From Pseudomonadota bacterium (lineage in GTDB: Bacteria > Desulfobacterota > Desulfobacteria > Desulfobacterales > RPRI01): a stretch of DNA of 35,612 bases. The position numbers and the translations under genes were made by a program. Each line of letters starts with the position of its first letter. The first letter of the stretch is position 1. Location: the NCBI GenBank assembly GCA_018901125.1, contig JAHIFE010000123.1, positions 1 through 35,612 of the forward strand. The letters are read 5' to 3'. A model generated the notes under the pieces. It was not told where the DNA came from and ran no database searches. It saw only the letters and a list, made by a program, of their open reading frames with translations. Below, in pieces: positions 825 through 35,398 of the stretch.

Positions 825-874
825 AATACATCCCCTTTCCAAAAGCTGATTATTAAAATTGTATGATAAAACCA

Positions 875-2776
875 CTATTCCAGACTATCGACAATGGCAT
901 CCAGCTCCTCCCAGCGCCGGTATGCGGCTGAGATTTTATCTTCTATGACTTGCAGACGCGCAGTGATATCAGAAATTTCTTCCTTGTTATTTTTATAGAA
1001 ATCCGGGTTGGACATGTCTGCAACAAGCTGTTTATGCTCTGTTTCCAGGTCATCGATGGTTCGAGGCAGAATTTCTAAGTCCCGTTGCTCCTTGAAGCTG
1101 AGTTTGCGAGGTTTGTCCGGCTTGTTCCTGGCAGCACGCGGCTTGATGTTTTTTGATTCAGGCTTTGGCACAGATTCAACGTTCGGGCGTTGAGCCAACC
1201 AGTCATCATAACCGCCGGGATATTCCCGGATTGTGCCTTTACCCTCAAAGGCCAGAGTACTTGTGACAACATTGTTTAAAAAGGTACGGTCGTGGCTTAC
1301 CAGCAAAAGCGTTCCGGGATACTCCAACAGCAGATCTTCCAGCAGTTCCAGGGTTTCGGCATCAAGATCATTGGTTGGCTCATCCATTACCAGTACATTA
1401 GTTGGTTTGACAAACAGTTTGGCCAGTAGGAGGCGATTCTTTTCGCCGCCCGAGAGAATGTGCACCGGTGTGCGGGTGCGCTCAGGAGGAAATAAAAAAT
1501 CCTGAAGGTAGGAGATCACATGACGTTTTTGTCCGTTGAACTCGATGAAATCATTGCCTTCGCCAATATTCTGAACAACGGTTTTATCTTCATCTAACTG
1601 GATGCGCAGCTGATCGAAATAGGCCACTTGCAGCTGTGTGCCATGACGGATACTTCCTTTGTCCGGAGCGATCTCCTGAAGCAGAATTTTGAGCAGGGTT
1701 GTTTTACCCAATCCGTTGGGACCGATAAGACCTATTTTGTCACCTCTCATTATAACGGTAGAAAGATCCTTGATATATGGCACACCGGCGAAAGAAGAAT
1801 GAATCCCTTTGGCCTCAATAACCAGCTTGCCGCTGCGTTCAGCTTCCTGGATCTTCATGTTCACACGGCCTATTTCAACCCGGCGTGCTCGAAAATCCTC
1901 GCGCATTTTTTTTAAAACCCGAACGCGCCCTTCGTTTCGGGTTCGACGGGCTTTGATGCCCTTACGTATCCAGATCTCTTCTGCCGAGAGCTTTTTGTCA
2001 AAACGCCGATTTTGATTTTCCTCGCTCTGGGCATCGGCTTCCCTGCGTTTTAAATAGGTTCCATAATCACAGGCATACGAGATAAGTCGGCCTCGATCCA
2101 GTTCCAAAATGCGGTTGGCAATCCTTTTTACAAATGCCCGGTCATGGGAAACAAAAAGCAGGGTTTGAACGTGCTTGGCAATGTAATCCTCCATCCAGAC
2201 GATAGTGTCGATATCCAGATGGTTTGTGGGTTCGTCCAGAAGAAGCAAATCGGGTTGTCGGACCAGTGCACGACAAAACAGCGCGCGGCGCTTCATGCCT
2301 GCTGAAAGAGTGGCAAAATTCAATTCGGGATCGAGTCCGGTACGTGCCAGCAAATCCTCGATACGCGGCGCCAGGACCCACCCATTCACAGAATCCATTT
2401 GGTGCTGCAACGCTTCGTACCTGGCAAGGTATTCCGGATTACCGACCGACACCAAGTCACTGGATAAGCGGCGGTACTGGATCAGGGTCTGACCAGCATC
2501 GCCGAGACCTAGGGCTACCGTATCAAAAATTGTGTCATGGGTGTAGCAAGGCACTTCCTGCTCTAGTATAGCGGTGGTCAAACCTTGCTGAACCCTGATC
2601 TCCCCGCTGTCCGGCAATAGATTGCCATTTATAAGTTTAATCAAACTAGATTTGCCAACACCATTTCTGCCCAACAAGCAGATCCGTTCGCCCTTTTCAA
2701 TTTGCAGGTTGACTTTGTCGAGCAATGGCACACCACCCAAGCCCCAGCTCATATCCTGCATGCTGATTAATGCCAT
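875..2776 (-). CDS. uup: ABC-F family ATPase Uup
   Basis: This soluble tandem ATPase of 633 residues belongs to the ABC-F family, which acts on ribosomes or nucleic acid rather than as a transporter. The first ATPase domain has Walker A GRNGVGKSS (36-44) and Walker B LLLLDEPTNHLD (177-188). The second has GPNGLGKTT, the signature LSGGEKNR and VLVMDEPTNDLD. The inter-domain linker with ARRTRNEGRVR and the C-terminal predicted coiled coil (about 560-633) are typical of Uup, a DNA-binding ABC-F protein linked to precise excision of transposons. No membrane segment is present. The first signature reads LSAG (157-160) instead of LSGG. Its codons look more GC-rich than those of its neighbours. Family assignment is secure; the cellular role rests on E. 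coli knowledge. Confidence 0.93.
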   Translation of the reverse strand: MALISMQDMSWGLGGVPLLDKVNLQIEKGERICLLGRNGVGKSSLIKLINGNLLPDSGEIRVQQGLTTAILEQEVPCYTHDTIFDTVALGLGDAGQTLIQYRRLSSDLVSVGNPEYLARYEALQHQMDSVNGWVLAPRIEDLLARTGLDPELNFATLSAGMKRRALFCRALVRQPDLLLLDEPTNHLDIDTIVWMEDYIAKHVQTLLFVSHDRAFVKRIANRILELDRGRLISYACDYGTYLKRREADAQSEENQNRRFDKKLSAEEIWIRKGIKARRTRNEGRVRVLKKMREDFRARRVEIGRVNMKIQEAERSGKLVIEAKGIHSSFAGVPYIKDLSTVIMRGDKIGLIGPNGLGKTTLLKILLQEIAPDKGSIRHGTQLQVAYFDQLRIQLDEDKTVVQNIGEGNDFIEFNGQKRHVISYLQDFLFPPERTRTPVHILSGGEKNRLLLAKLFVKPTNVLVMDEPTNDLDAETLELLEDLLLEYPGTLLLVSHDRTFLNNVVTSTLAFEGKGTIREYPGGYDDWLAQRPNVESVPKPESKNIKPRAARNKPDKPRKLSFKEQRDLEILPRTIDDLETEHKQLVADMSNPDFYKNNKEEISDITARLQVIEDKISAAYRRWEELDAIVDSLE

Positions 2777-6520: not shown

Positions 6521-7996
6521 TCACTTAGCGCTCTGTATGTATTTTTTCACAGTACGTCTATCCAGATTTACCCTTCGCGACACCTCTTCAAAGGTACCAA
6601 ATCGCTGGTAAAGCATTATGCAGTAATTACCTAAAAGTGTCTGGGCATCCATGCTTCCGGATTCTATCCCCGACAATAGATGCGTTTTTTCGTCAGGTCT
6701 TGTTTCTTTTTTGTCGCCTGAATAACTGCGCTTGAGCAGCACCCTGCGCACACATTGTTCCAGCTCCCGGACATTGCCGGGCCAATGGTAATGATTGCCG
6801 AGTTCTATTGAAATCACATCCCTTACAATGTCTGCCAGCTCCGGAGAAGGTTTTCCGATCAGCCTTTCCACGGTATGAGATAAAAGCCAGTCAAGTTCAT
6901 CCGGGTCTTCCTCCAGACGCTGTCTCAGCGGCGGAACCGTAATGGTATCGGAGCACAGCCTGTAAAAAAAGTCATCCCTGAATCGTCCGTTAGCACGAAG
7001 TTTATTGATGTCGCGGTTCGTTGCAGCAATCACCCTGCCCTGAAACCGTTTTTTCTCGTGACCGCCCACAGGAGAATATACCCGTTCCTGCAAAACCTGG
7101 AGAAGCTTTATCTGAACAGGAATAGCGGTTTCACCGATTTCATCCAGAAAAATGGTGCTGTATTGTCCGCATTGTTCCAGAATACCTTTATGTGTTTCTA
7201 TTGCCCCTGTAAATGCACCCTTCCTGTGTCCAAACAACTCCGATTCGATCAATGCTTCCGGAAATTGAGACAGATTCAGGGAAATGAGGGAGCGGGTAAA
7301 GCTGTCTTCAAAACAATTCTCCTTTTCATTGTACGGAATAAATCCCGAACGTCCTATGGCTGCTGCCGCAGTTCCCTTGCCAGTGCCAGTTTCCCCAAGC
7401 AAGAGCGTTGAAAAATCCTCCATCCTGTTCCACAGATATTTTTCATACAAACCGATATCATAGGTAAAAACATTGTTCCAGAGGTTTAGCCTGAGCTGTC
7501 TCATGGAGGGACTTGTGCCCACAAGACTTCGTTCAATAAAGAAATAGGCCCTGCGCATCTGGTAAAAAATAGCAAAATAGCGGCAAGCCTCAGCTTCCCG
7601 GAAGCCATATTTAATAAGTGCGCTCATTAATTTTCCGGCAAACGACACCTTTAAAGGCGTGTCTCCAGCCTCTCGCTGGTCCATGATAAGCGTGTCGAAT
7701 GCCTGCGCATACTGATGATAGACATAAAAAAGCAACGAGTTCTTTACCCGTTCATGATCATCTCCTGAAAAAGAATTAATATCCGCCTGCCCTTTCTTTT
7801 CAAGAGCCTTTATTTCCCGGTCCACTGCCTGAAAAACCTTGTCCAGTATTTCAGGAGAAGCTGTATCAGGAGAAAGTCCTGATATCTCAAGATCAAACCG
7901 ATTCCTTTCGTCACTGAAAGGGTTGGCAAACACCGCCCGGGTGACCAAAGAGAAGAATTTGCGCTCCTTTACTGTGAGTTTGTTTTCTGATTCCAT
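6521..7996 (-). CDS. Sigma-54-dependent transcriptional activator (Fis-type HTH)
   Basis: A bacterial enhancer-binding protein of 491 residues. Its N-terminal sensory region (about 1-165) has no recognised domain: I see no receiver, PAS or GAF signature. The central AAA+ domain has Walker A GETGTGKG (201-208), the sigma-54 contact loop GAFTGA (260-265), Walker B-like TIFLDEIGE and the arginine-finger region FRDDFFYRL. The C-terminus carries a helix-turn-helix ending RRTVKKYIQ. The start at Met 7996 (MESENK) is preferred over an upstream ATG at 8083, whose extra 29 residues look like intergenic translation. It is transcribed away from the VIT/vWA-rhombosortase operon across a 182-base gap. By the usual logic of divergent regulators it probably controls that operon, and it is the only candidate in the window for the sigma-54 sRNA promoters. 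Confidence 0.9.
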   Translation of the reverse strand: MESENKLTVKERKFFSLVTRAVFANPFSDERNRFDLEISGLSPDTASPEILDKVFQAVDREIKALEKKGQADINSFSGDDHERVKNSLLFYVYHQYAQAFDTLIMDQREAGDTPLKVSFAGKLMSALIKYGFREAEACRYFAIFYQMRRAYFFIERSLVGTSPSMRQLRLNLWNNVFTYDIGLYEKYLWNRMEDFSTLLLGETGTGKGTAAAAIGRSGFIPYNEKENCFEDSFTRSLISLNLSQFPEALIESELFGHRKGAFTGAIETHKGILEQCGQYSTIFLDEIGETAIPVQIKLLQVLQERVYSPVGGHEKKRFQGRVIAATNRDINKLRANGRFRDDFFYRLCSDTITVPPLRQRLEEDPDELDWLLSHTVERLIGKPSPELADIVRDVISIELGNHYHWPGNVRELEQCVRRVLLKRSYSGDKKETRPDEKTHLLSGIESGSMDAQTLLGNYCIMLYQRFGTFEEVSRRVNLDRRTVKKYIQSAK

Positions 7997-8071
7997 ACAA
8001 AATATGTACACATATAAGCATAATTTGTCTATATAATTTTTTATTAACATCCTGTGCAAATCTTTAACATA

Positions 8072-8130
8072 TTGAATATTCAATAATTATAATTTGGCAT
8101 GGTTTCTGTAAAGCATGGTTGCAATGCTTT
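8072..8130 (+). promoter_or_regulatory. Candidate regulatory region of the VIT/vWA operon
   Basis: Between the divergent genes I see a perfect dyad ATTGAATATTCAAT (8072-8085), then a sigma-54-like element TTGGCATGGTTTCTGTA (from 8094; the -12 GC is GT, a significant mismatch), then a second dyad AAAGCAT-N7-ATGCTTT (8110-8130). The ribosome site AAGGAGG (8165-8171) precedes the ATG at 8179. The promoter call is weak; the dyads are certain as sequence and fit operator sites for the divergent activator. Confidence 0.35.
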
Positions 8131-8178: not shown

Positions 8179-10206
8179 ATGTACCATAAAATAAAAGTAA
8201 GGATAGTACTAATGATCTTGTTTGCAGGCTTTTTCATGATGCAGATATCCGTTTCACAAGCAGCGGGCTTATTGAAACCCCTTAATGGCAATGGGTCGGA
8301 CATTCACATGAAAACTCACAATGTTCAGGTGACCGTAAACAACGGATTTTGTCGCACAGAAGTAGATCAGATCTTTGTCAATAAAGGCGACGCGGATATG
8401 GAGGCGGTCTATTCGTTTCCTTTACCTTCAAAAGCAAGTCTCTCTGAGCTAAGCCTCTGGATTGACGGCAAGGAAGAGATCGGCGAAGTACTTGAAAAAG
8501 AAAAGGCAAAAAAAATCTATGAGGACCAGAAGGCAAAGGGAAAAGATTCTGCCCTGGCTGAAAAGGATGATTACAAGACATTTAATGTAAGCGTTCACCC
8601 CGTGAGGGCCGGTGCGGAAACGCGTGTGCGGCTGGTCTACTACCAGCCCCTTGAGATCGACCTGAATATTGGTCGATATGTGTATCCTTTGGCAGAAGGA
8701 GGGGTTGACGAGGAAAGGATTGCATTCTGGTCTGTTGATGACAAAGTTACAGGATCGTTTTCATTTGACTTGACACTAAAATCCGCCTTCCCGGTTAAAG
8801 ACGTTCGCGTGCCCGGTTATCAGGATCATGCAGAAATCAAGCAAGCCGGCAATACCGGTGAAGGAACAACCGGGAGTGAGGTATATCATGTCAGCATCAG
8901 TGAACCTGAAGGCAGTAATCTTTCCAAGGATATTGTTTTTTATTACAGACTTAAAGAAGATGTACCTGCACGGCTTGAGTTAATCCCATACAAAGAAGCA
9001 CTAAACAAGGAAGGCACGTTTATGGTGGTAGTAACTCCCGGTGCTTCCTTAAAACGCATCGCAGAGGGTACGGACTGGACCTTTATTCTGGACAGATCGG
9101 GAAGTATGGGCGGTGAAAAGATAAAGACCCTGGCAGATGGAGTATCCCGTGTGATTGGCAAGATGTCTCCAAATGATCGTTTTAGGATTATCACATTTAA
9201 TGATAAAGCCGATGATTTTTCAGGTGGATATATAAATGCGACACAGGAAAATGCAAAAACCATGATCGAGCGCTTAAAAGGACTTCAGGCAAGTGGTTCA
9301 ACGGCCCTTTTTGCAGGATTGGAAAAGGGATGTAAAGGACTTGATGACGACCGCACAACCGGAATCGTACTTGTTACGGATGGAGTAGCAAATGTAGGAC
9401 CCACTCAAGAGTCTGCTTTTCTGGAATTATTGAAGGGCTATGATATCAGGCTTTTCACATTTGTAATAGGCAACAGCGCCAACAGGCCCCTTTTAAATAA
9501 ACTGGCAAAAAATTCCAATGGATTTGCTATGAACATATCAAGCAGTGATGACATCATTGGACGAATTCTCCAGGCAAAGGAAAAAGTCCTGCATGAAAAC
9601 TTTCATGATGTTGAACTACGTTTTCATGGTGAAAAGGTTAAAGAGCTCACCCCGACACATGCGGGAAGCCTCTACATAGGACAGCAGCTTGTGACATTCG
9701 GAAAGTACAATGGTTCCGGTAAAGTCGATATCGAACTACTTGCCAAGATCTCGGGCGCACAACACAGTTGGCGATGCACAGCGATTCTGCCTGAAGTGGA
9801 TAAGGACAATCCTGAAATAGAAAGGCTCTGGGCTCTGTCCAGCATAGAAGACCGGATGGAAAATATCCGGGAAAAAGGTGAAAGTGATAACCTCCGAACT
9901 GAGGTTGTGGATTTAGGAACGAAATATTCTCTGGTAACCGATTATACCTCTATGATTGTTCTGACAAAAGAAGAAATCGAAAATCTTGGGATTACTCCAA
10001 GAAATAAAGAACGGGTGCTTCGTGAACGTCAGGCCCAGCAGCTACGCGCCAATGCGCCTGCAAAGAACTACAGGGCGGACAATAGTAGCAATGACAGCGG
10101 CATGTTCAAGGGACTTAAAGCTCCGAGTATCAGCGTAGGTTCCGGGCCTCTTGGGCCATTATCTCTGGCATTTATTTTCTGGCTCAACCGCAGGAAAAAG
10201 AAATAA
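8179..10206 (+). CDS. VIT and von Willebrand A domain surface protein with GlyGly-CTERM-like tail
   Basis: A 675-residue exported protein. Residues 1-29 are a signal peptide ending VSQAAG. A VIT domain follows (about 35-165), as in inter-alpha-trypsin inhibitor heavy chains. A vWA domain (about 298-480) has an intact metal site: DRSGS (305-309), Thr375 in GSTALF and Asp401 in VTDG. The C-terminus is tripartite: a Gly/Ser/Pro-rich turn (SVGSGPLGP), a short hydrophobic segment (LSLAFIFWL) and a basic end (NRRKKK), the form of a GlyGly-CTERM rhombosortase signal, though the Gly run is broken by Pro and Leu. The next gene encodes a rhombosortase, which supports that reading. The protein probably reaches the cell surface, is cleaved near its tail and binds a ligand through its metal site. 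Ligand unknown. Confidence 0.9.
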   Translation: MYHKIKVRIVLMILFAGFFMMQISVSQAAGLLKPLNGNGSDIHMKTHNVQVTVNNGFCRTEVDQIFVNKGDADMEAVYSFPLPSKASLSELSLWIDGKEEIGEVLEKEKAKKIYEDQKAKGKDSALAEKDDYKTFNVSVHPVRAGAETRVRLVYYQPLEIDLNIGRYVYPLAEGGVDEERIAFWSVDDKVTGSFSFDLTLKSAFPVKDVRVPGYQDHAEIKQAGNTGEGTTGSEVYHVSISEPEGSNLSKDIVFYYRLKEDVPARLELIPYKEALNKEGTFMVVVTPGASLKRIAEGTDWTFILDRSGSMGGEKIKTLADGVSRVIGKMSPNDRFRIITFNDKADDFSGGYINATQENAKTMIERLKGLQASGSTALFAGLEKGCKGLDDDRTTGIVLVTDGVANVGPTQESAFLELLKGYDIRLFTFVIGNSANRPLLNKLAKNSNGFAMNISSSDDIIGRILQAKEKVLHENFHDVELRFHGEKVKELTPTHAGSLYIGQQLVTFGKYNGSGKVDIELLAKISGAQHSWRCTAILPEVDKDNPEIERLWALSSIEDRMENIREKGESDNLRTEVVDLGTKYSLVTDYTSMIVLTKEEIENLGITPRNKERVLRERQAQQLRANAPAKNYRADNSSNDSGMFKGLKAPSISVGSGPLGPLSLAFIFWLNRRKKK

Positions 10207-18751: not shown

Positions 18752-18826
18752 ACAAAAGTTCAGCGGCCAACCGGAATTAATCCGATTGGCCGCTAAGGAG
18801 AAAAGAAGAACTATTTTGGGGTTAAC
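18752..18826 (-). ncRNA. Candidate sigma-54-dependent sRNA, copy 1
   Basis: A predicted transcript of about 75 nt on the minus strand. After the sigma-54 promoter it reads TTAACCCCAAAAT, then TTCTTTTCTCCTTA (anti-Shine-Dalgarno), and ends in a strong hairpin (18762-18794; AGCGGCCAA pairing TTGGCCGCT with an inner CGGA/TCCG) followed by CTTTTG. The same layout and much of the sequence recur at 34779-34851. The transcript limits are inferred from the promoter and hairpin. Around it, the 590-base gap 18588-19177 contains no gene other than this module. Confidence 0.7.
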
Positions 18827-18834
18827 TTTTATTA

Positions 18835-18852
18835 AAGCAAATATCTTGCCAA
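18835..18852 (-). promoter_or_regulatory. Sigma-54 promoter of sRNA copy 1
   Basis: On the minus strand the element reads TTGGCAAGATATTTGCTT: GG and GC are exactly 10 bases apart, and both the TTGGCA (-24) and TTTGCT (-12) boxes match the sigma-54 consensus. It differs at few positions from the element of copy 2 while the surrounding AT-rich DNA is more diverged, which argues that it is under selection. Confidence 0.8.
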
Positions 18853-18923: not shown

Positions 18924-19009
18924 GTTACAATTAGCTATATTTATATATTTCTCATTAATAATTATTTTTTAAATTTCATATATTTAACACATTGTTCATT
19001 ATTATGAAC
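18924..19009 (-). promoter_or_regulatory. Upstream activator sites of sRNA copy 1
   Basis: A dyad GTTCATTATTATGAAC (18994-19009) lies about 175 bases upstream of the predicted start, the usual range for sigma-54 activator sites. A conserved block TAGCTAATTGTAAC (18924-18937 in minus orientation) lies between it and the promoter in DNA rich enough in A and T to bend or bind IHF. Both have counterparts at similar distances in copy 2. Confidence 0.6.
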
Positions 19010-19120
19010 CTGCATTTGTGAGTATCGATATATCTACCTTATTTTAAAGGAATTATTTGCATTTATTCTTTTAAACCAAATCAGGACACGAGCTGCTTCA
19101 ATTATGCTCCAGAATTTAAG

Positions 19121-25032: not shown

Positions 25033-27216
25033 CTAATAAACCTTGTACTCAATTTCCTCGGTAACAATCGGCCGAATACTACCATTTAAGGTAATCTCGG
25101 CTCTTGTTGTGAACTCACCTCTTGAAACCTTCCAGTTGTATGTAAGCTTATCTGTTGTCGCTACCAATTTATTATTGATAAACCACTTAACATTTTTTAT
25201 GTCAGCTGTATCGGTAAGAGCAAATTCAAAATATTCATATTCATCGGGAATTCTGGGATCCATTGCCAGCATCAAGCCTTTGCTTGGTTTACGGATACGA
25301 ACTTCCTGAGCTAAAGCAGCCATACCATCAGGCCCGGTTCCCGGAATAAACCATTCGTCTCTGGGCTCACAGTCAGCGCTTGCAGCTAACCCCGTTTCAA
25401 TGCATACTCTTTGCTTAACAAGGTTTTTGCTAAAATAGATTGGCCTGACTTCTCTGTTTCTGTTTAATTCATTAAATATTGAGCGAAGGGCAACAGCTGG
25501 GCCTGATGAACCGGTTACCTCATTCATCCCGGAGTAATCCAGATTACCGACCCAGATTCCAACTGTATACCTGTCATTAAAGCCAAGCGCCCAGGCATCT
25601 CTGTAATCACTTGATGTGCCTGTTTTCACAGCTGTCTGGTATGGTAAATTTAAGATTGAATCCCAGCCGAATTCTTTTTCCCTTGCACCGGGATCAGAAA
25701 TAATATCTGCGATCAAGCTTGCAATATCTTCCGACAATACTCTATGGCTTTCGTTTCTTAAATGTTCACCCTCAATAAATGATAATGGTTTAAAATCTCC
25801 CATCCTGGCCAATACCGTATATGCCTGAACCAGTTCAAACAGTGTCAGCTCGCCATTGCCTAAAGCTAAACCGTCTCCATAAACATTTGGGTGGCCTGAC
25901 AGACTTTCAATACCTAAATCATATAGAAAAGATAAAAATTCGTTTGGGCCGATGTATTGAATAGCTTTTACTGCCGGGATATTGAGTGAATTACCCAAAG
26001 CTTCCCGGAGCGAAATCAATCCATAGTGATCACGGCTGTAATTGTGATATGTATGCATGCCCAAACCAACGCTTTCTTCCAGTGGAGAGTCATCAAGCAT
26101 GGTGGCTGCTGTCCATCCTTTACGTATTGCATTGGCATACAGCAATGGCTTTAAGGCTGAGCCGGGCTGCCTCTGAGCCGTAACAGCATCGATTTTATTG
26201 AACTGCTTATCTTTTTTGCCCGCATAGCCTACAACCCATGAAATAATTTCATTCGTTTCATGATCCACAATCAGTAATGCTCCGTTTGTTACATGAAATT
26301 TTTTTAATCTTTCAAGTCTATTATCAAGAATCTTTTGTGCTTTTAACTGTAATTCCAGATCTATGGTTGTATGAATAAGACCGCTGTCAAGCATATCCGG
26401 GTTTAACCGGGATTGTGCGTAACCAATAAAATGCGATAAGTTGTATTCTATGCCAGCCTGATGCAATACCAACTCCTGTTTTGATATTTCTGCTGCTTTG
26501 GCAGAATCTATATTCAAACGGCGGATTAAATAATTTATAGATTTGTCAAGTTTGGAAACCTGTCTTTGCGGGTCAAGCCATTTAGGAGATCTTACCAATA
26601 CGGCTAAGGCAAGCATTTCTTTTTTATTTAACGTTGAGATATCACGATCGAAATAATAACTTGCAGCCTGGGCAATTCCCCGGCGCCTTGCTTTATATGG
26701 AACCTGATTCAGATAAAATTCGAGTATTTCAACTTTTGAAAACTTTTTTTCAAGAAGTAGCGCTTCAAAGCCTTCAAGCCATCTCGACCAAAATGATCTG
26801 GGCCTTGGGTGAAGCATCCTGACGACCTGTTCAGAGATTGTACTGGCCCCCCTGACTACTTCACCCGCTATAATATTCTGCCTGACTGCACCCAATCGGG
26901 CCAACCAGTCAACTCCGCCATGAGTATAGAACCTTTTATCTTCAGATATAATAAAGGCATTTTGCAAGAATTCCGGGATCTCGTGAATTTTTACAAAATC
27001 ATAGATATTCCATTGGTTGTCATACGTCACATTCAAACGCTTGCCATAACGATCGAGATAGGTATTTTTTTTTGTAACCGAAATATATGTCAACAAATCA
27101 TCTGGTATTGGTTTAATAGAAATGATTGTGGCGCCACAGAGTGCCGCCACAATCAAGGCACAAACCACAAGTACTGTTTTCTTATTAAACAGACCGGAAA
27201 TATTTAAAGATGGCAT
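25033..27216 (-). CDS. pbpC: Penicillin-binding protein 1C
   Basis: This 727-residue bifunctional peptidoglycan synthase has a membrane anchor at 13-33. The glycosyltransferase domain (about 65-240) has the catalytic Glu92 in SEDKRFYTHGG and the second motif GASTISEQ (123-130). The transpeptidase domain (about 300-570) has the active serine in SALK (353-356), SLN (410-412) and KTGTS (531-535). A C-terminal BiPBP_C beta domain (about 640-725) identifies the 1C class. It overlaps the stop of the alpha-2-macroglobulin gene by one base (TAATG), so the two are translationally coupled. That pairing is a well-known feature of bacterial alpha-2-macroglobulins, thought to defend the periplasm while PbpC repairs the wall. 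All active-site motifs are intact. Confidence 0.95.
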   Translation of the reverse strand: MPSLNISGLFNKKTVLVVCALIVAALCGATIISIKPIPDDLLTYISVTKKNTYLDRYGKRLNVTYDNQWNIYDFVKIHEIPEFLQNAFIISEDKRFYTHGGVDWLARLGAVRQNIIAGEVVRGASTISEQVVRMLHPRPRSFWSRWLEGFEALLLEKKFSKVEILEFYLNQVPYKARRRGIAQAASYYFDRDISTLNKKEMLALAVLVRSPKWLDPQRQVSKLDKSINYLIRRLNIDSAKAAEISKQELVLHQAGIEYNLSHFIGYAQSRLNPDMLDSGLIHTTIDLELQLKAQKILDNRLERLKKFHVTNGALLIVDHETNEIISWVVGYAGKKDKQFNKIDAVTAQRQPGSALKPLLYANAIRKGWTAATMLDDSPLEESVGLGMHTYHNYSRDHYGLISLREALGNSLNIPAVKAIQYIGPNEFLSFLYDLGIESLSGHPNVYGDGLALGNGELTLFELVQAYTVLARMGDFKPLSFIEGEHLRNESHRVLSEDIASLIADIISDPGAREKEFGWDSILNLPYQTAVKTGTSSDYRDAWALGFNDRYTVGIWVGNLDYSGMNEVTGSSGPAVALRSIFNELNRNREVRPIYFSKNLVKQRVCIETGLAASADCEPRDEWFIPGTGPDGMAALAQEVRIRKPSKGLMLAMDPRIPDEYEYFEFALTDTADIKNVKWFINNKLVATTDKLTYNWKVSRGEFTTRAEITLNGSIRPIVTEEIEYKVY

Positions 27217-30200
27217 TATTCACCCACATTTAATGTTGCCGGTAACCCTTTGCCATAAACATCAGGATCATACATCTCTTCTGCATGTACCGGCATTACA
27301 CTAAATTTGCCTTCGGCTATCGCTTGCGCTGTATAGGACAAATGATAGTTTCCGGCAGGCAAATAATCCGCAAAAAATCTCGCCGAATCATGTCTTAGCT
27401 CTTTATGATAAAAACTCCAGAAATACCGTCCGTAATAAGACCAGTTTGAAAAGTTATAAAACCAGGAACCTTCTGCTGCTTTAAAACTGCCCTTATCCGC
27501 ATCAACCGAAGATGCCGTGGCAAGGTCGGTATTAACAGGCTCAAGACCGCCCGGTATGGGATCATTGACTACAACAAAATGCCTGGCAGTGGGCACGGAA
27601 ATAAAGAGGTCAACCTTAACCAGGTCTCCCCTCTTAATGCCCATTGGGCTTTTTAAAAGAACAAGCTTGCCTTCACGCTCTACTGAATATTCTCTGCGGA
27701 TTTCAATGCCTGAATTAATTCTGGCTGCATTATCTTCCTTTAAATCATAGGAAATTCTTGCAGAGTAATACAGCCGTCCTTTACCTTCTTTCTTTATATC
27801 AAGTTTTGCAGAGCGCCCGGGGTCGTCTTCTCGAATCGGCCGATTTATTGTTACCATCGGATCAGTTTTTGAAGAAAAGGAAGTATCACCTATTTTTTCA
27901 CCATCAAAGCTGACAGAAACCTTCATGGCAGGATCATCTTTCTCATACAAGTTTGAATAATCAATAAGAGCGTTTAAGCAAAAAACATTTTCCTGGGTAT
28001 TTTCCCAATGATCCCTGTTTCCCCGGCTTTGCGTAATACTTCTCACAAGCTTGAACGGGATATCGCCAATAGCCGAACTTTGGCCAGATTGCACCTGTGC
28101 GCTTAAAAGGCCGGATAGAACAGCACAATTAGATCTCAAAGGTGTTGCAAGAACATATTTGTAGCTATCATCCCAGGGCTCATTAAACTGGAATTTTCCT
28201 CCGGTTTGACTTGCATGCCCCAGAATGGAGTTAACAGTCGCCCGGATTGCCTCTTCCGAAACACCAGTGGTTTTTATTGCTGCCTGCAAAAAGTGAGATT
28301 TTCCGAAAAGATCCATTTCAGGAACATGTGATTCATATCTTTTTATGTCATCAGCAGATATTTTTCCTGTTTCAGATAGCGCTGCCAAAGCAACTGCCCG
28401 AACTGTGGAAGACATGCCTTTACTATAAAAAGTTGGAAATTCATCCCGACGCAAAAGATTCAATAAGTACTCATGCAACCTTTCTTCTACATTCTCAGGA
28501 ATCGTATAGCCGCTTCTTCGCAGCCAGTTAAAAGCAGTTGCAGTATAGGCCGAAAGATACGGGCTTACATATAGGTTAGATGGAATCCAATACACCATTC
28601 CGCCATTTGGAGCCTGATAATTGGCTGCTGAATTCAGGGCATTCTCGATATCTTTTTTCGGCTCCGGCCATTTCGTTTTTTCATTCAGGTATTCTTTTAA
28701 TTCTATATATGAATTGGCGACAACAGCTTTTGTTAATCTTTGCTCCCAACAGTCATAAGGATATTCTTTAATGTATTTAAAAGCTCCGTCAAGATTTCCT
28801 ATAACGGAAGCAGATAAAACTGCGCCAATAGATCCCACGTCGGTATATATGCCTTCGGGAACTTTCACAGACTCGCTTACGCCATCGGATACTATTGTGC
28901 CGTAAGTCGAAGCCGTTTCGAGCGAACGTCTCTTGTTTACCGGCACAGAATGCTCCAGCGCATCGGCATCAAGCTTATCACCGGCTCTGACAATAAACTT
29001 CAAATTTCCGTTTCCTTTTGTTAAGATTGGCAACCAGATATTTTCTCTTTTATATGGTGCAATTTTTATGTCATATACAAATGCTTTCTTTGAACCTTTT
29101 GCCAGGGGTCCATCAACGGAAATATTGACCTTAAGATTTCGCAATTTATCAGTCCGGTTCATTACATTAAAACCGGCCTTAAATTCATCTCCTTCGATTA
29201 CTTGATTTGGCATAACAGGACGAATTTCTGTTGGGCGGTTAACTTTAATGTTTGCATCGCCAAGTCCCATCCGATCATCTTTTGTAACTGCAAGAGCCAA
29301 AATTCGCCAACCGGTAAGATTGTCCGGAACCTCAAACTCAATTGTAGCCATTCCATTGCTATCAGGTTTAATTGAGGGGTTCCAATAGCTGACAAATTTG
29401 AACATGTTTCTAAGTTCTGAGTATGCGGTTTCTCCACCACCACCACCACCGGAATTAGCACCCTTTTTCTCAAACTTCTGCCTGCCAACCAAACGACTGA
29501 TCAGACTGTAGTTATTTACATCCAGATCATCCAGACGGTTAAACCCTGCGTAAGGGTCATAATAATTGTCACCGCTGCGATTAAGCGCCAATACAGACTC
29601 ATCAACTACAGCAACAGCTATTTCAAAACGTTCATTGCTTTTTAATTTTTTCTTATTTATCTGAATCTTTGCCTTAACCTTTTCACGAGGCTTGTATGTG
29701 TTCTTGTCAGTACTTACATTGATTTCAATTTCTTTATAGGGATCAGCAACTTTTGCACTAACATAACCCATACGATAGCTTGGCTTTCCTAAATCCACCT
29801 TATCCGGGCCAAGAGGCTTATCAACACGGGGAGAGATTGCTACTACCGACAAATAGAAACCGGGCAGGTAATCAGGCTTTATCGGCACTTTTATAACAGG
29901 AGTACTTGTTTCCAATGTTTCAATCCAGCTATCCAAAATCCCATAACGCTCAATGGTTACCAGAGCTTTTGCACCGGGAAATGGATTTTTAATTAAATAT
30001 CTGGCTGTATCTCCAATCTTGTATTTAGTTTGTTCGGGGATTATCTGCAAAGTTGCATCATTGGTCTGATCCCAAACAACGCTGCCTTTACCAATAACCC
30101 AGGCGTCAATAACAGTTTTATGTTCTCTATTCTTTTCATCTTTTATGGTTGCAACAAACTGATAATAGCCTGGGTGTTTTGGTACAAATTCACAAATACT

Positions 30201-33107
30201 TGCTCCTTTATCACTTTTTAAGCTGCAACTGGTTTCCTCAACCCACTCCATAATGTTTTGGGTTAAATATGCATTTCCCGGACCTTTTACCCGCGATGCC
30301 TTGTATTCACGATGATTAATCGCAATCGAAATATCCACGCCAGGAACCAATTTGCCAGATTGATTAACAACAAGCGCTTCAAGCTTTGCAGGCTTGTCTC
30401 TTTCATACAACCAACTGGTATTACGTAATCCTACAAATCTGTTTCTGCCGGCATAATTCGCTTTTGTTGAAGAAGCTACAAATTTTCCCCTTTCATCCTT
30501 TACAGCAGACTCAACCACAACAGAGCCATAATAAATATCTGTTTCAGGCAGGGTAAATGCTTCAATATATTGCCCATAATCGTCAAGCTTTCCTCTAATA
30601 TCGAGCAGATTACTTTGCTCTGTATCCAAATATTTTCCACTGCTGCTTCCAAAAGTAAAGCCGGATGCTACGGGATTATCGGTTATGAAAGGTTCTTGAT
30701 TTAATTTTGCAGTTAATCGGACTTCCGCTTCGGTAAAGGGCCCACCCGAATGTAATGTAGCAATTGTTGTTATTTCAACCTGATCATTTGCTTTAAACAG
30801 CTCCCCGTTTAGCTCGGTTTTTACATTAAACGGTGCTGGAGTAAAGTCACTTACCAATACAGACATCGGAGACCAGGCATAACTATTGTAGTTTTCTTCC
30901 TGACCTTTAACCGGCATAAGCTTGAATTGATACCACCCTACAGCCCCCTGTTCAGGAACTTTAAAATCTCCATCAAAAGACCCAAATTCATTTAAGATTA
31001 CATCTTTTATTTCATAGATTATTTTATTTTGTGGATCAAAAACCTGTAATTGATAGCCTTCTTTCTTCGGCGATACCCATTTCTTGTTACTTTGCTCTCG
31101 AACATAAATTATAAACTGAATAGTATCTCCCAGTTTGTAGATGCCTTGTGCTGTGGTACCCCACGCATGAGTATGGCCTCCTTGTCTTTGTAATCTGGGA
31201 TACACGTCACTGCCAGTTATGGAAAAAGGGCTATTAAGCGGAAGAACAGCGATATCGCCCTTATGTTCAATTTTTACAAAAAAACACGGCCTATCAGCTC
31301 TCCATCCGCCATAAATAATTTTCAGATCAGGATCAATCTCAGCCAGGCCGGGCAACTCAGCCAGACCGTTTACATTTGTAGTTGCTGATATTTTCAGGTT
31401 CTCAAGCTCCGACAAATTTTCGTAAGAACCCTTGTGCAAAGTTACCCTGGCACCTTTTACCGGTTTTCCACTTTCAAATGTGGTAACCCATACCAGTGAA
31501 TTGAAATGACCTGCCTTAAAGTGCACCTGATAAGGAGTTACCTGGGCTAATATTTGGGGGTCGCCATACCACACCGGAGGCTTGGGGTCGGGATGCACTC
31601 TACCAAAAAGAATGCCGGTATCATCACCTATAAGTTTTTTTACACCCAGGGGAATAGCATAGGAAATATCCTCAACTTTCCGGACCGCAATTTCTGCCGT
31701 GAGATCTTTGCCTTTACTTGTGTCTCCCAGTTTGTTGTAAGTAACTATGACTTTGTTTAAATTTGTTACATACAAGGGGACATCACTTTCTACACCTTTT
31801 TCCAGAACTGCATAATCATGATTTAGTTTAATATTAGGTTCACGATGATCCGTGAAAAAATCAAAATCTGCTTTATTTTTCAGTTTACGCCCGAATTCAT
31901 CCTTTATGTTTTTAATATCAATTTTAACTGTGTATTTTTGATAGGCCTTTAATAATTCCGGCAACCATACCTGATAATTTCGTCCGGTCCGATGCGGCGA
32001 AGACAAATGAGTCCAGTCATGGGTATTTTCCCAAGGGTCATAATCCTTACGCCCGCCATCTAATCTTGGCGAAAAATCCACATGATTTTTTACCATGGAA
32101 TTCTTGACCGGAGAAGAAAACAACAATGCAACAGGACTTAACGGCGCGCACTTTTTTATAAACGATTGATCTTCTTTTGACTGGATAAGAGTTTCTAAAG
32201 CAATATCTTCAGCTAAACGTTCCCCTTTCGGTGTACAACGTAAGCCGATAAATTTAAATTCAGGATATGTTTCAAAACTAACTATTGTACGATTTTCTAT
32301 ACCGGATTCACCGCCCTCACTTGATACCAAGCCGGGATTAACATCAAACCAGATTGTACTGTTAAGGGGTAATTCTTTTTTGGGTTCAACCACCCAGACA
32401 CTACGCGCTTGTTCTCCGTCTTTATTTGTAAGCTTATCATTTACCATGCTGTGGTCATCAGCGTTATCGTCTTCATTAGTGATCATCATCCACCACGGCT
32501 GCTCTCTTTGCATATCATCAGGATAAACAACAACCCCGACAGCAGCGCTGTCCTTTACTTCTCTTGCCGTCATAGTCAAGGATTTTTCAACTGAAGTCTT
32601 GGTAACAGGTTGATTAAAGGAAACTTGAATTAAAGGAGTCCCCGGAGATAACCAATTAACAAATTGCGTATAAGTTACTTTAGGACGAGCAGTAATAAAG
32701 GAATGAGTAACTTCATCTTTTAGCACTGCTCCGGTTTCGGTTTTTATTCCCGGCTTTATTATTACTTCATATTGTGTAGCCTGCTTCATCTTGTCTTCTT
32801 CACGAAGCTGGCATGCCAAAGCACTGGTATTTAACCAACGCCACTCACAATTTAATTTCGGCCGAATGGTTACAGGAATATCTTTGGAATCCCGCTCCAT
32901 CCTTCCAATAGGCGCTACAGGCCTGTCGAATTGGAATACCACTTGCTGCCCTGCAGGCACATCATTGCCTTCCGGTGTGATTCTTAATATTTTTAGTTCA
33001 TTATCACTTGGATTATTTGAGGAATCAAAACTTGGATCAACGGCCCATGCATAATTAAATGTACATAAGAGAATTAACAGCGCTACTGCATTGATTACTT
33101 TTTTCAT
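27216..33107 (-). CDS. yfhM: Bacterial alpha-2-macroglobulin with thioester
   Basis: This 1963-residue periplasmic protease trap has a signal peptide (1-22, ending NYAWA) with no lipobox cysteine, unlike the lipoprotein YfhM of E. coli, so it may be free in the periplasm. MG-type beta domains fill most of the length. A Gly run (SGGGGGGE, near 1220) lies about 235 residues before the thioester motif CWEQ (Cys1453, Gln1456), where a protease-sensitive bait region would be expected. The complement-like domain following the thioester is complete, and the C-terminal domain ends in LPATLNVGE. On proteolysis the thioester is exposed and covalently traps the protease. It is longer than the E. coli protein. 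It is first in the operon with pbpC; the gap before it (33108-33409) holds no gene and no promoter I can name with confidence. Confidence 0.94.
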   Translation of the reverse strand: MKKVINAVALLILLCTFNYAWAVDPSFDSSNNPSDNELKILRITPEGNDVPAGQQVVFQFDRPVAPIGRMERDSKDIPVTIRPKLNCEWRWLNTSALACQLREEDKMKQATQYEVIIKPGIKTETGAVLKDEVTHSFITARPKVTYTQFVNWLSPGTPLIQVSFNQPVTKTSVEKSLTMTAREVKDSAAVGVVVYPDDMQREQPWWMMITNEDDNADDHSMVNDKLTNKDGEQARSVWVVEPKKELPLNSTIWFDVNPGLVSSEGGESGIENRTIVSFETYPEFKFIGLRCTPKGERLAEDIALETLIQSKEDQSFIKKCAPLSPVALLFSSPVKNSMVKNHVDFSPRLDGGRKDYDPWENTHDWTHLSSPHRTGRNYQVWLPELLKAYQKYTVKIDIKNIKDEFGRKLKNKADFDFFTDHREPNIKLNHDYAVLEKGVESDVPLYVTNLNKVIVTYNKLGDTSKGKDLTAEIAVRKVEDISYAIPLGVKKLIGDDTGILFGRVHPDPKPPVWYGDPQILAQVTPYQVHFKAGHFNSLVWVTTFESGKPVKGARVTLHKGSYENLSELENLKISATTNVNGLAELPGLAEIDPDLKIIYGGWRADRPCFFVKIEHKGDIAVLPLNSPFSITGSDVYPRLQRQGGHTHAWGTTAQGIYKLGDTIQFIIYVREQSNKKWVSPKKEGYQLQVFDPQNKIIYEIKDVILNEFGSFDGDFKVPEQGAVGWYQFKLMPVKGQEENYNSYAWSPMSVLVSDFTPAPFNVKTELNGELFKANDQVEITTIATLHSGGPFTEAEVRLTAKLNQEPFITDNPVASGFTFGSSSGKYLDTEQSNLLDIRGKLDDYGQYIEAFTLPETDIYYGSVVVESAVKDERGKFVASSTKANYAGRNRFVGLRNTSWLYERDKPAKLEALVVNQSGKLVPGVDISIAINHREYKASRVKGPGNAYLTQNIMEWVEETSCSLKSDKGASICEFVPKHPGYYQFVATIKDEKNREHKTVIDAWVIGKGSVVWDQTNDATLQIIPEQTKYKIGDTARYLIKNPFPGAKALVTIERYGILDSWIETLETSTPVIKVPIKPDYLPGFYLSVVAISPRVDKPLGPDKVDLGKPSYRMGYVSAKVADPYKEIEINVSTDKNTYKPREKVKAKIQINKKKLKSNERFEIAVAVVDESVLALNRSGDNYYDPYAGFNRLDDLDVNNYSLISRLVGRQKFEKKGANSGGGGGGETAYSELRNMFKFVSYWNPSIKPDSNGMATIEFEVPDNLTGWRILALAVTKDDRMGLGDANIKVNRPTEIRPVMPNQVIEGDEFKAGFNVMNRTDKLRNLKVNISVDGPLAKGSKKAFVYDIKIAPYKRENIWLPILTKGNGNLKFIVRAGDKLDADALEHSVPVNKRRSLETASTYGTIVSDGVSESVKVPEGIYTDVGSIGAVLSASVIGNLDGAFKYIKEYPYDCWEQRLTKAVVANSYIELKEYLNEKTKWPEPKKDIENALNSAANYQAPNGGMVYWIPSNLYVSPYLSAYTATAFNWLRRSGYTIPENVEERLHEYLLNLLRRDEFPTFYSKGMSSTVRAVALAALSETGKISADDIKRYESHVPEMDLFGKSHFLQAAIKTTGVSEEAIRATVNSILGHASQTGGKFQFNEPWDDSYKYVLATPLRSNCAVLSGLLSAQVQSGQSSAIGDIPFKLVRSITQSRGNRDHWENTQENVFCLNALIDYSNLYEKDDPAMKVSVSFDGEKIGDTSFSSKTDPMVTINRPIREDDPGRSAKLDIKKEGKGRLYYSARISYDLKEDNAARINSGIEIRREYSVEREGKLVLLKSPMGIKRGDLVKVDLFISVPTARHFVVVNDPIPGGLEPVNTDLATASSVDADKGSFKAAEGSWFYNFSNWSYYGRYFWSFYHKELRHDSARFFADYLPAGNYHLSYTAQAIAEGKFSVMPVHAEEMYDPDVYGKGLPATLNVGE

Positions 33108-33409: not shown

Positions 33410-33742
33410 CTAGGTAGATCCTAAAGAAGAATCTCCGGTTATCTTAAGGTGATGCTTACTATAGACAAATACTTCGTATTCGGTAGGCTCATCCAGCAAC
33501 TCTTCCAACTGGACCTCTATTTCTTTTCTGAGCTGATTTTCTTTCCAGTTCATCCAATCTTCCATACTCTGCCAAGTACCGATTACCAAAGTTCCTTGAG
33601 GATTGTTATAGTCGACCAAAGTCTCACCTGAGATATATCCCTGCTGATTCATCGCCATAGCACGGATTTTTCTGATCAGTACGAAAACATTCCTTAAATT
33701 ACCCTCTTTGATCTTCCTTCTCATGCAAACCTTAACAAGCAT
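33410..33742 (-). CDS. Antibiotic biosynthesis monooxygenase (ABM) fold protein
   Basis: This 110-residue protein shows the dimeric ferredoxin-like barrel of the ABM superfamily: MLVKVCMRRKIKEG as first strand, a helix with VLIRKIRAMAMNQQGYISGETLVDY, and TLVIGTWQSMEDWMNWKEN, where W-x-S-x-E-x-W-x-x-W is the family signature. Members act as small quinol monooxygenases or haem-degrading enzymes, and many have no known substrate. The ribosome site AAGGAGG lies before the ATG. It stands alone between the alpha-2-macroglobulin gene and a 1.4 kb gene-free stretch (33743-35185) that holds a composite MITE and the second sRNA module. Confidence 0.8.
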   Translation of the reverse strand: MLVKVCMRRKIKEGNLRNVFVLIRKIRAMAMNQQGYISGETLVDYNNPQGTLVIGTWQSMEDWMNWKENQLRKEIEVQLEELLDEPTEYEVFVYSKHHLKITGDSSLGST

Positions 33743-33910: not shown

Positions 33911-34371
33911 CTTGTGTTGCCAGGGTAACCGCATTTAGAAATAATGGTTTTGTACAAATATCATAGACCGTCATGCCGGACTTGATCCGGTATCCAGAAC
34001 CCATTAAAATTACTGGTTTCCGGCTTTCGCCGGAATGACGAATGTGGTTATCCTGCCGCAGCGGAAGTAATCGAATTTAACCGGGTTAAAAAATCATGGC
34101 AAGCGTGAGTTGCCGGGAGATTAAGGTAACCGCATTTGGAAATGACATAATCAACCCCCGCATAAAAAATAAATCGCAGTAAATTCCCCCTTAAAAAAGG
34201 GGGTTAGGGGGTTGTTCCGTATTTTATTACAACCCCCTTGATCCCCCTTTGCTAAGGGGGAATCTGAGAGAGGGAACGGGCATTTACCAATAACTCAACC
34301 AACTAATTACATTAGTTTATCTGTATATAGTTTTGGGTTAATTCCAAATGCGGTTATCCTGCTTGTGTTGC
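33911..34371. mobile_element. Composite MITE-like insertion bracketed by one 10-bp target duplication
   Basis: The direct repeat CTTGTGTTGC occurs at 33911-33920 and 34362-34371. Between them, the left end CAGGGTAACCGCATTTAGAA (33921-33940) and right end TTCCAAATGCGGTTATCCTG (34342-34361) form inverted ends of the same family as 16522-16734. Inside are two further ends: a right end AATGTGGTTATCCTG (34041-34055) and a left end AAGGTAACCGCATTTGGAAA (34133-34152). The first half carries the CATGCCGGACTTGATCCGG/CGCCGGAATGACG palindrome; the second half carries a different one (see 34184-34262). No reading frame is present. Confidence 0.82.
34184..34262. repeat. Inverted C-run/G-run repeat inside the composite MITE
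   Basis: TTCCCCCTTAAAAAAGGGGG and the following GGTTAGGGGGTTGT are mirrored by ACAACCCCCTTGATCCCCC and TTTGCTAAGGGGGAA. Repeats of this kind are scattered widely in deltaproteobacterial and other genomes. Here it is the interior of a mobile element. Confidence 0.8.
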
Positions 34372-34540: not shown

Positions 34541-34694
34541 GTTCAAAATATTGAACGCATATAATCATATTAATATCAAAGCATTACATCATCACTTGCA
34601 AATGCTGGTTCAAAATATTGAACTTGCTGTTAGTATTATAAAATCTTAGAAATGATTTATTAATTAGAAATAAAAGAAATAGCTAATTGTAACT
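34541..34694 (+). promoter_or_regulatory. Upstream activator sites of sRNA copy 2
   Basis: Two identical perfect dyads GTTCAAAATATTGAAC lie at 34541-34556 and 34608-34623, 67 bases apart centre to centre, about 160 and 230 bases upstream of the predicted transcript start. A third weaker dyad ATGAATAATATTCAT lies at 34520-34534. A conserved block TAGCTAATTGTAACT (34680-34694) follows. The second dyad and the block have counterparts in copy 1. Paired dyads at this distance are typical binding sites of sigma-54 activators. Confidence 0.65.
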
Positions 34695-34752
34695 ATCTTG
34701 TATTTATAATAATAATGATTATATTGTATTAAAATTAAAAAAATAAACAGAA

Positions 34753-34770
34753 TTGGCAAGTTATTTGCTT
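34753..34770 (+). promoter_or_regulatory. Sigma-54 promoter of sRNA copy 2
   Basis: TTGGCAAGTTATTTGCTT has GG (34755-34756) and GC (34767-34768) separated by exactly 10 bases and near-perfect -24 and -12 boxes. It differs from copy 1 at one position (TTAT against ATAT in the spacer), while the flanking AT-rich DNA has diverged. Confidence 0.82.
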
Positions 34771-34778
34771 ATACTCAT

Positions 34779-34851
34779 ATTAACCCCAAAATAATTCTTT
34801 TTTCTCCTTAGCGGCCAACCGGATCAATACCGGCTGGCCGCTACCCTTTTT
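34779..34851 (+). ncRNA. Candidate sigma-54-dependent sRNA, copy 2
   Basis: A predicted transcript of about 73 nt starts 11-12 bases after the -12 box. It reads TTAACCCCAAAATAATTC, then a pyrimidine tract with TCTCCTTA (34803-34810), and ends in a hairpin (34810-34842; GCGGCCA pairing TGGCCGC, inner CCGG/CCGG) followed by CCCTTTTTG, a complete intrinsic terminator. The unpaired 5' part is the most conserved segment between the two copies, as expected for a target-pairing region. The gene-free stretch around it (34372-35185) contains nothing else that I can name. Confidence 0.75.
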
Positions 34852-35066
34852 GTCTCACTAACATTGGTAATTTTAGTTGCACCCGGTTTTTGAGTTCGTT
34901 TCTATTCTATATTTTGCGAAAAAAGCATGCAAAATCCGGAATATTTTTTTCAGATAGTAAAAAAGACATTTACAGGCCTTTCTTTTAAACGATTTTAATT
35001 ATTAATTTCCCGATTTTTATTTTTTATGTCCGATAATGGCAAGGAAATTGCTTTGCAAGTTTAGAT

Positions 35067-35185: not shown

Positions 35186-35398
35186 ATGGATTTTGCTTGC
35201 TTGAAAAAACTTGATTGCTATACCGGACATCTTAAGAAAAGTCCTTGCAGGGACTGTGAGTTGAAAAACAATCTTCCCGATTGTTTCGATGATTGCAACA
35301 TATTGAAACAATTACAGGCAAGTATAGCCGGTATTATACCATCCTCGAATAATTATTCGGAATTTGAAACATTTTCCGTACCCTATCACCAATCCTGA
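35186..35398 (+). CDS. Small Cys-rich protein, unknown function
   Basis: This 70-residue protein has six cysteines in the first 37 residues: Cys5, Cys11, then CRDC (21-24) and CFDDC (33-37). The spacing suggests a zinc-binding or disulfide knuckle, followed by a short helix (NILKQLQASIAGI) and a tail rich in Ser, Tyr and Phe. No signal peptide is present, so a cytoplasmic metal-binding or adaptor role is more likely than secretion. The ribosome site GGAGG lies 8 bases before the ATG. It is followed by a strong terminator and preceded by a sigma-54-like promoter, so it appears to be a single-gene unit. I do not recognise the family. Confidence 0.75.
   Translation: MDFACLKKLDCYTGHLKKSPCRDCELKNNLPDCFDDCNILKQLQASIAGIIPSSNNYSEFETFSVPYHQS

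Follow-up and report, generated by a model that had tools for sequence, protein, structure and literature searches.

A candidate sigma-54-driven small RNA family of Desulfobacterota with outer-membrane porin mRNAs as its best predicted targets

Introduction

The window analysed here, a stretch of 35,612 nucleotides from a Desulfobacterales genome, carries near its right end an element in which paired dyads precede a sigma-54 promoter and a hairpin. What would such an element produce, what would switch it on, and what would it act upon? An earlier inspection of the letters alone (the sequence-only reading) had taken it for a new, sigma-54-driven small regulatory RNA (sRNA) that pairs with ribosome-binding sites in response to nitrogen, a surface or another signal. 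Here we follow the element through related genomes and weigh this proposal against its rivals.

Results

Architecture of copy 2

The element, referred to as copy 2, consists of the following features.

34541-34851, plus strand: copy 2, whole element
34541..34556: distal enhancer dyad GTTCAAAATATTGAAC, an exact palindrome at 197 nt from -24; in relatives, dyads cluster near 208 nt
34608..34623: proximal enhancer dyad GTTCAAAATATTGAAC, exact, at 130 nt from -24; in relatives, dyads likewise cluster near 130 nt
34680..34700, plus strand: AT-rich, conserved stretch that lies between the enhancers and the promoter and contains TGTAAC (34688-34693)
34753..34770, plus strand: sigma-54 (-24/-12) promoter TTGGCAAGTTATTTGCTT, exact consensus TTGGCA-N6-TTGCTT
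34779..34851, plus strand: predicted small RNA, about 73 nt with both ends inferred; matched by models R1 and R2 (below); fold z = -6.18
34780..34809, plus strand: unpaired candidate target-pairing arm with the anti-Shine-Dalgarno TCTCCTT, the conserved unpaired part of the family; arms of relatives complement porin ribosome-binding sites and starts
34810..34842, plus strand: 13-bp hairpin (arms 34810-34822 and 34830-34842) with one A.C mismatch in copy 2

Both the paired dyads and the promoter claimed by the sequence-only reading are present exactly, which supports a sigma-54/enhancer architecture. The two dyads are the only zero-mismatch GTTCANNNNNTTGAAC sites in the window, and the zero-mismatch consensus TTGGCA-N6-TTGCTT likewise occurs only twice, in copy 2 and in its paralogue copy 1 (18852-18835, minus strand). 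When up to 3 mismatches are allowed, the window holds 65 sigma-54 sites versus 53 expected, a number reached by 9/100 shuffles and thus not above chance, so that support for the promoter comes from its exactness and conservation. The TGGC and TGC of the promoter do not vary among 56 aligned family members, which were picked partly on these very letters. Additionally, T[GA]TAAC lies within 120 nt of the -24 element in 18/41 promoters versus 4.6 expected, and at -62 to -77 in 14/41; the AT-rich stretch that contains it in copy 2 is possibly a bending site.

The segment 34777-34852 folds at -24.4 kcal/mol (z = -6.18), as low as none of 200 shuffles. The full intrinsic terminator of the sequence-only reading stands as regards its hairpin, which has 13 bp, and needs correction as regards its T-run, which begins 4 nt past the stem and comprises few bases in either window copy (TTTTT; TTTT); a simple terminator scan did not list this terminator. 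In many relatives a long T-run directly follows the stem, and the copy 2 hairpin with its short T-run to 34851 is a probable terminator.

The surroundings contain other features of note. Two palindromic, repeat-like intergenic stretches (33962-34040 and 34180-34265), recognized by eye, separate copy 2 from the gene at 33410-33742. Downstream, a sigma-54-like site ATGGCAAGGAAATTGCTT with one mismatch (35036-35053, plus strand) is followed after about 130 nt by a cysteine-rich frame of 70 residues without a Pfam match (35186-35398, plus strand). Upstream, an Alpha-2-macroglobulin-type protein (25033-33107, minus strand) adjoins a penicillin-binding protein.

Copy 1 and the wider family

The paralogue of copy 2 lies on the opposite strand, and its dyads are spaced by 67 nt, as in copy 2.

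19076-18754, minus strand: copy 1, whole element
19061..19076: distal dyad, degenerate, located by alignment with copy 2
18994..19009: proximal dyad GTTCATAATAATGAAC, one mismatch
18835..18852, minus strand: sigma-54 promoter, zero mismatches
18754..18826, minus strand: predicted small RNA with hairpin 18794-18762, located by R1/R2 matches and alignment with copy 2

The covariance model R1, built on the two window copies only, matches 92/194 relatives at E<=0.1; homologues of the proposed sRNA-like family, whose absence would have spoken against it, do exist beyond the window. A second model, R2, was built from 56 members, drawn from 64 sequences of which 8 were omitted, while nine further loci yielded no sequence. 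At E<=0.001, R2 matches 254/389 genomes of a class sample and 39/395 genomes of a phylum sample, with 26 of the 39 outside the order and at weaker E-values. Exact matches to the family pattern in named genomes amount to 31 loci, assigned to Desulfobacterales, Desulfobacteraceae, Deltaproteobacteria, Desulfosarcina, Desulfonema limicola, Desulfococcus and one Olavius-associated Delta 1 symbiont. A looser promoter-plus-arm pattern (3 mismatches) was discarded as uninformative, as it matches 58/59 genomes and its reversed control also matches often.

The hairpin shows clear covariation: two-sided changes occur in 12 of its 13 pairs, 97% of cells are paired, and the 114 two-sided cells compare with a shuffle mean of 28, a value that 0/500 shuffles attained. 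An existing Rfam family does not explain the element, as neither the window nor 20 related loci match any at the gathering score; the four matches at E<=1 belong to other families and are all below cut-off (the best scoring 29 versus 100 bits). The element has the general features of a trans-acting base-pairing sRNA, namely a predicted promoter of its own, no coding capacity, a 3' hairpin and a conserved unpaired arm. Neither the family with its combination of features nor any sRNA with a proposed target in Desulfobacterales was found among the matches listed in the open-licence literature. Copy 2 is apparently a member of an undescribed sRNA family in sulfate-reducing-type bacteria.

A kinase-regulator pair often adjoins the sRNA gene

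To the question of what would switch the sRNA on, the gene neighbourhoods point to one candidate. An NtrC-type response regulator lies about 180-590 nt upstream of the sRNA on the same strand in 12/29 fetched loci, and the same arrangement is seen in 9/20 longer neighbourhoods, a set overlapping the first. In the latter a histidine kinase precedes the regulator with few exceptions (at locus L064 the bases upstream of the regulator are masked); Pil-, FeoB- and PfkB-like neighbours there were named by eye and left out of the argument. Outside the order, where 12 of the 26 phylum-sample hits were fetched, the regulator lies 190-250 nt upstream on the same strand in 8/12 loci, all found with a search model of the RNA only. 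On contig C143 of the window's own genome, kinase, regulator and a third sRNA copy stand side by side.

Among the 194 relatives, the sRNA is found in 131/149 genomes with a kinase orthologue (best E below 1e-60) versus 8/45 without, a co-occurrence that is inflated because the genomes share ancestry; the remaining 18/149 kinase-positive genomes have no sRNA hit. A genome was counted as sRNA-positive if R1 matched at E<=0.1 or R2 at E<=0.001, the latter in the class sample, which covers part of the 194. By Pfam, the pair at locus L052 consists of a kinase with HisKA and HATPase_c and a regulator with Response_reg, Sigma54_activat and HTH_8. The predicted kinase structure has a mean pLDDT of 77.5, and the best 50 of 600 rows of a fold search are kinase or related sensor structures, ZraS being the top crystal structure among these. 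The L052 regulator is below cut-off for all of the best 25 of 120 NCBIfam families, including AtoC, NtrC, ZraR, LuxO and GlrR. We regard the conserved kinase-response regulator pair that often adjoins the sRNA as its likely activator. Another sigma-54 activator, without a receiver-domain match, lies in the window itself (6521-8083, minus strand) next to a VIT/VWA-domain protein (8179-10206); it is not likely to activate the sRNA.

As for the signals suggested by the sequence-only reading, nitrogen regulation was rejected because the regulator scores 465 bits, below the NCBIfam ntrC cut-off of 559; glutamine synthetase is just 1/18 non-sRNA sites of the arm pattern at <=1 mismatch (below), in one genome. 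A surface signal found no support.

The dyads were also scanned in 28 whole genomes, chosen as sRNA-positive. All 15 perfect GTTCAAANWTTTGAAC sites precede an sRNA promoter by no more than 400 nt, so that the GTTCA-TGAAC dyads look dedicated to the family sRNA. Of the one-mismatch sites, 25/49 are in this position, the window's dyads among them, and 24/49 are elsewhere. Distances to the -24 element cluster near 130, 208 and 287 nt, and one of the 28 genomes (G192) has no dyad match. Two loci, L051 and L064, have TTTCC-GGAAA dyads together with an altered recognition helix in the regulator, a pattern that concerns two cases only. A stray site, L359 (G153:C546), combines three one-mismatch GTTCA-type dyads, spaced by 77 nt, with a sigma-54 promoter at the distance usual for the family; an arm-like stretch comes next and, about 440 nt further, a frame (653-976, minus strand) for a protein of 107 residues that is probably exported. 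What follows the promoter may be a degenerate sRNA copy or else the leader of the 107-residue protein, which would then be a second output of the regulator.

The arm matches porin leaders in relatives

The common arm of the family, CAACCTAATAATTTCTTCATCTGTTCTCCTCCTTAACGG, is the complement of a ribosome-binding site followed by a start codon and the opening codons MKKLLG, which supports the earlier claim of a conserved 5' region able to pair with ribosome-binding sites. A single conserved target of the MKKLLG type was considered and rejected, since the closest matches are mostly sRNA genes. We then ran the pattern AAGGAGGANAACAGATGAA, which is blind to gene type, on 59 genomes and obtained 36 sites at <=1 mismatch, 18 of them in sRNA genes or sRNA-like hairpin loci (5 of these judged by hairpin). 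Outer-membrane barrel genes account for 10/18 non-sRNA sites (G029 twice, G031, G033, G021, G027, G016, G019, G042 and G043), where nine of the barrel calls have family support, several below cut-off, and one (L126:2703-3776) was made by eye only; the site in G016 lacks an ATG. We take Phenol_MetA_deg proteins to be outer-membrane barrels. A structure search with a porin query returned no solved relative. The other eight sites belong to glutamine synthetase, an Sdh-like subunit, flavodoxin, a DUF3783 protein, two possible lipoproteins without a family, a 62-residue frame and one site without a frame. It is possible that the ATGAA starts bring a signal-peptide bias to the pattern.

Two perfect pairings join a porin to the sRNA of its own genome: in G031 (GGAGAAAAACAG) and G029 (GGAGGAAAACAG), 27 uninterrupted nucleotides pair across the linker and the start codon. 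Of 294 sampled starts in G031, that of the porin comes out on top (-36.9, the mean being -17.5 with sd 4.3), and no other match exceeds 14 nt; the sample consisted of contigs named in earlier hits, the porin's own contig being included on purpose. With 100 shuffled leaders, the longest match over 239 starts was 13. Eleven porins with a clear start and a known own sRNA were tested further, other Porin_4 loci having been dropped for want of a known sRNA, for contig ends or for an unclear start; sRNA leaders were cut by eye. For 10/11, at most 3/200 shuffled leaders formed as good a duplex with the own sRNA, the G021 porin (48/200) being the exception. In a swapped-leader test the own sRNA came first for only 4/11 porins, and it was not favoured by those of G033 (15 of 16), G027 (10) and G021 (9).

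A second site in the porin leader, upstream of the ribosome-binding site, follows the first part of the arm. Specifically, the leader TTATCAGGTTT faces the sRNA AAACCTGATAA in the window's genus, and several leaders contain a second, similar copy of this site; in G029 the leader AAGAAATTATTAGGTT faces the sRNA AACCTAATAATTTCTT, and the variants AAAAATTATCAGG and AAGAAATTGTTT occur in G031 and G024. The match is just 8-9 nt in G033, G051 and G036, and in two of these, G033 and G036, the arm agrees better with a leader from another genome than with its own. Over seven clades the own matches sum to 77, which was reached by 0.04% of 5040 permutations. Judged by these complementarities, the best predicted targets in relatives are outer-membrane porin mRNAs.

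The picture differs for the window's own genome. The arm of its copies, AACCCCAAAAT..TTCTCCTTA, lacks the CAT complementary to a start codon, and a scan of 542 gene starts (678 kb, about 15% of the genome) yielded no strong target, the best energies going down to -31 kcal/mol at unrelated genes. No clear target emerged from the window's own gene starts, nor from an arm-specific pattern searched in three genomes. The porin of some sister species is present in G001, G003, G004, G007 and G008 and was not found in G000, G005 and G009 or in G002 and G006; porin loss and arm change do not coincide neatly, because G002 and G006, where the porin was not found, keep the usual arm. The window copies would presumably act on a porin of their own host.

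These results leave some room for a reading in which the same regulator drives the same sigma-54 sRNA and the porins are incidental, the CTCCTCCTT arm being a generic anti-Shine-Dalgarno that pairs with, or titrates, many strong ribosome-binding sites. The anti-Shine-Dalgarno core indeed persists outside the order (CTCTTTCCTCCT-like), the 8/18 sites not at barrel genes fit such a role, and so do the modest energies at unrelated genes in the sampled part of the window's genome. However, generic pairing accounts neither for a 27-nt match of the genome's own variant across linker and start codon nor for a separate leader site that co-varies with the arm, and we consider this reading unlikely, though not negligible.

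Copy number and the standing of the window copies

The third copy of the window's genome maps to G000:C143:42940-43050. Elsewhere, two or three tandem copies occur in G018, G121 and G187. It is conceivable that copies 1 and 2 are decaying duplicates, silent or drifted, and that the third copy beside the kinase-regulator pair is the working sRNA. Their short T-runs, the degenerate dyad of copy 1 and arms that have diverged to AACCCC without CAT would agree with decay. Yet each of the two copies has an exact promoter, and the dyads of copy 2 are perfect palindromes. The two copies agree in 85/110 aligned columns over promoter and RNA, with a similarity that extends upstream across the dyads, and G005, of the same genus, has four copies. 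We give decay a small chance.

An alternative reading of the strand deserves mention. The locus might encode a gene on the opposite strand, with the hairpin followed by a ribosome-binding site and a small frame (MKKLLG...), so that promoter and arm would be antisense features. The reverse complement of the common arm, TTAAGGAGGAGAACAGATGAAGAAATTATTAGG, is an ideal ribosome-binding site plus start; against this, the frame ranges from 6 to 75 codons across sRNA loci with arm T-runs of varying length, the window copies have no start codon there, the -24/-12 bases are kept, and the dyads stand at fixed distances upstream in the sRNA direction. As its frame is not conserved, this candidate was rejected as very improbable. 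That the hairpin, hairpin-then-T-run being a common motif, is merely the terminator of an upstream gene is hardly credible, with no called gene on the sRNA strand within 1 kb upstream of copy 2 and with arm, promoter and dyads conserved together across families.

Discussion

Taken together, the best explanation of the element, and in our judgement a probable one, is a two-component, sigma-54-driven trans-acting sRNA, present in three copies in the window's genome, that represses porins. It draws on the promoter, the dyads, the covarying hairpin, the regulator linkage, the exclusivity of the dyads, and the complementarity and porin-leader co-variation in relatives, all of them read from sequence. 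In the proposed mechanism, a membrane histidine kinase and an NtrC-type response regulator, as found beside the third copy on C143, would sense a signal; the phosphorylated regulator would bind the GTTCA-TGAAC dyads and activate sigma-54 RNA polymerase at -24/-12, so that the sRNA would be transcribed under the control of its linked regulator and end at its own hairpin. The unpaired arm, which mimics an anti-Shine-Dalgarno and in most relatives extends beyond the start codon, would pair with the porin ribosome-binding site and the second 5'UTR site and block translation. By analogy with known sRNAs, an arm covering ribosome-binding site and start codon would be expected to repress rather than to activate. 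The broader proposal of a Desulfobacterota-wide, dedicated outer-membrane circuit, in which kinase and NtrC-type regulator have as their main output one sigma-54 sRNA repressing porins at two co-evolving sites, is one that we favour with some reserve.

How does this sRNA compare with known systems? The LuxO-Qrr RNAs of Vibrio are sigma-54 base-pairing sRNAs, often multicopy and near an enhancer-binding regulator. The family sRNA also has a sigma-54 promoter and upstream dyads, but differs in its targets, in having no Rfam hit and in its regulator (393 bits at L052 versus a LuxO cut-off of 800).

In the account of PMC6075780, the GlmY gene lies beside the QseE/QseF (GlrK/GlrR) kinase/NtrC-type operon and has a sigma-54 promoter with several upstream activating sites, TGTN12ACA, and GlmY acts by RapZ sequestration. 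The family sRNA likewise adjoins a kinase/NtrC-type pair and has a sigma-54 promoter with several upstream sites; in contrast, its sites are GTTCA-TGAAC, its gene is found downstream of the regulator, which scores 374 versus a GlrR cut-off of 763 bits.

MicA and RybB are described as sigma-E sRNAs of enterobacteria that target outer-membrane protein mRNAs (PMC1804206). The family sRNA resembles them in complementing the 5' regions of omp mRNAs in relatives, with no match in the sampled 15% of the window's genome. Unlike these sigma-E-controlled RNAs, it has a sigma-54 promoter and a likely two-component activator, and no Rfam model matches it at cut-off. Our best reading is that the family sRNA works like MicA/RybB and is wired like LuxO-Qrr or QseF-GlmY.

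Closer to the family's own phylum, PMC3333781 and PMC4641369 describe, within the sigma-54 regulome of Desulfovibrio vulgaris, ncRNAs downstream of DVU0679 (Dv_sRNA2) and DVU0653 that are targeted by these response regulators. Expression of Dv_sRNA2 was seen by tiling array; both ncRNAs are reported without a function, and the accessible text proposes no target for them. Orthologues of DVU0679 are listed there for some Desulfovibrio, Desulfotomaculum acetoxidans and Symbiobacterium, and those of DVU0653 for a few Desulfovibrio. Compared by these descriptions only, the two ncRNAs resemble the family in being sigma-54 RNAs encoded downstream of their regulator. An ncRNA prediction also exists for Oleidesulfovibrio, according to PMC11124144.

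Given the R2 model, a candidate regulator with its proposed binding sites, and predicted targets, the family is testable in cultured Desulfosarcina, of which D. widdelii, D. alkanivorans and D. cetonica carry it. For the sigma-54 ncRNAs of Desulfovibrio vulgaris, it suggests a function that could be tried. If the proposal is true, sigma-54 and a two-component system would do here what sigma-E and MicA/RybB do in enterobacteria, suggesting repeated origins of sRNA control over porins under different sigma factors, and porin content in sulfate-reducing bacteria would be tied to an external signal.
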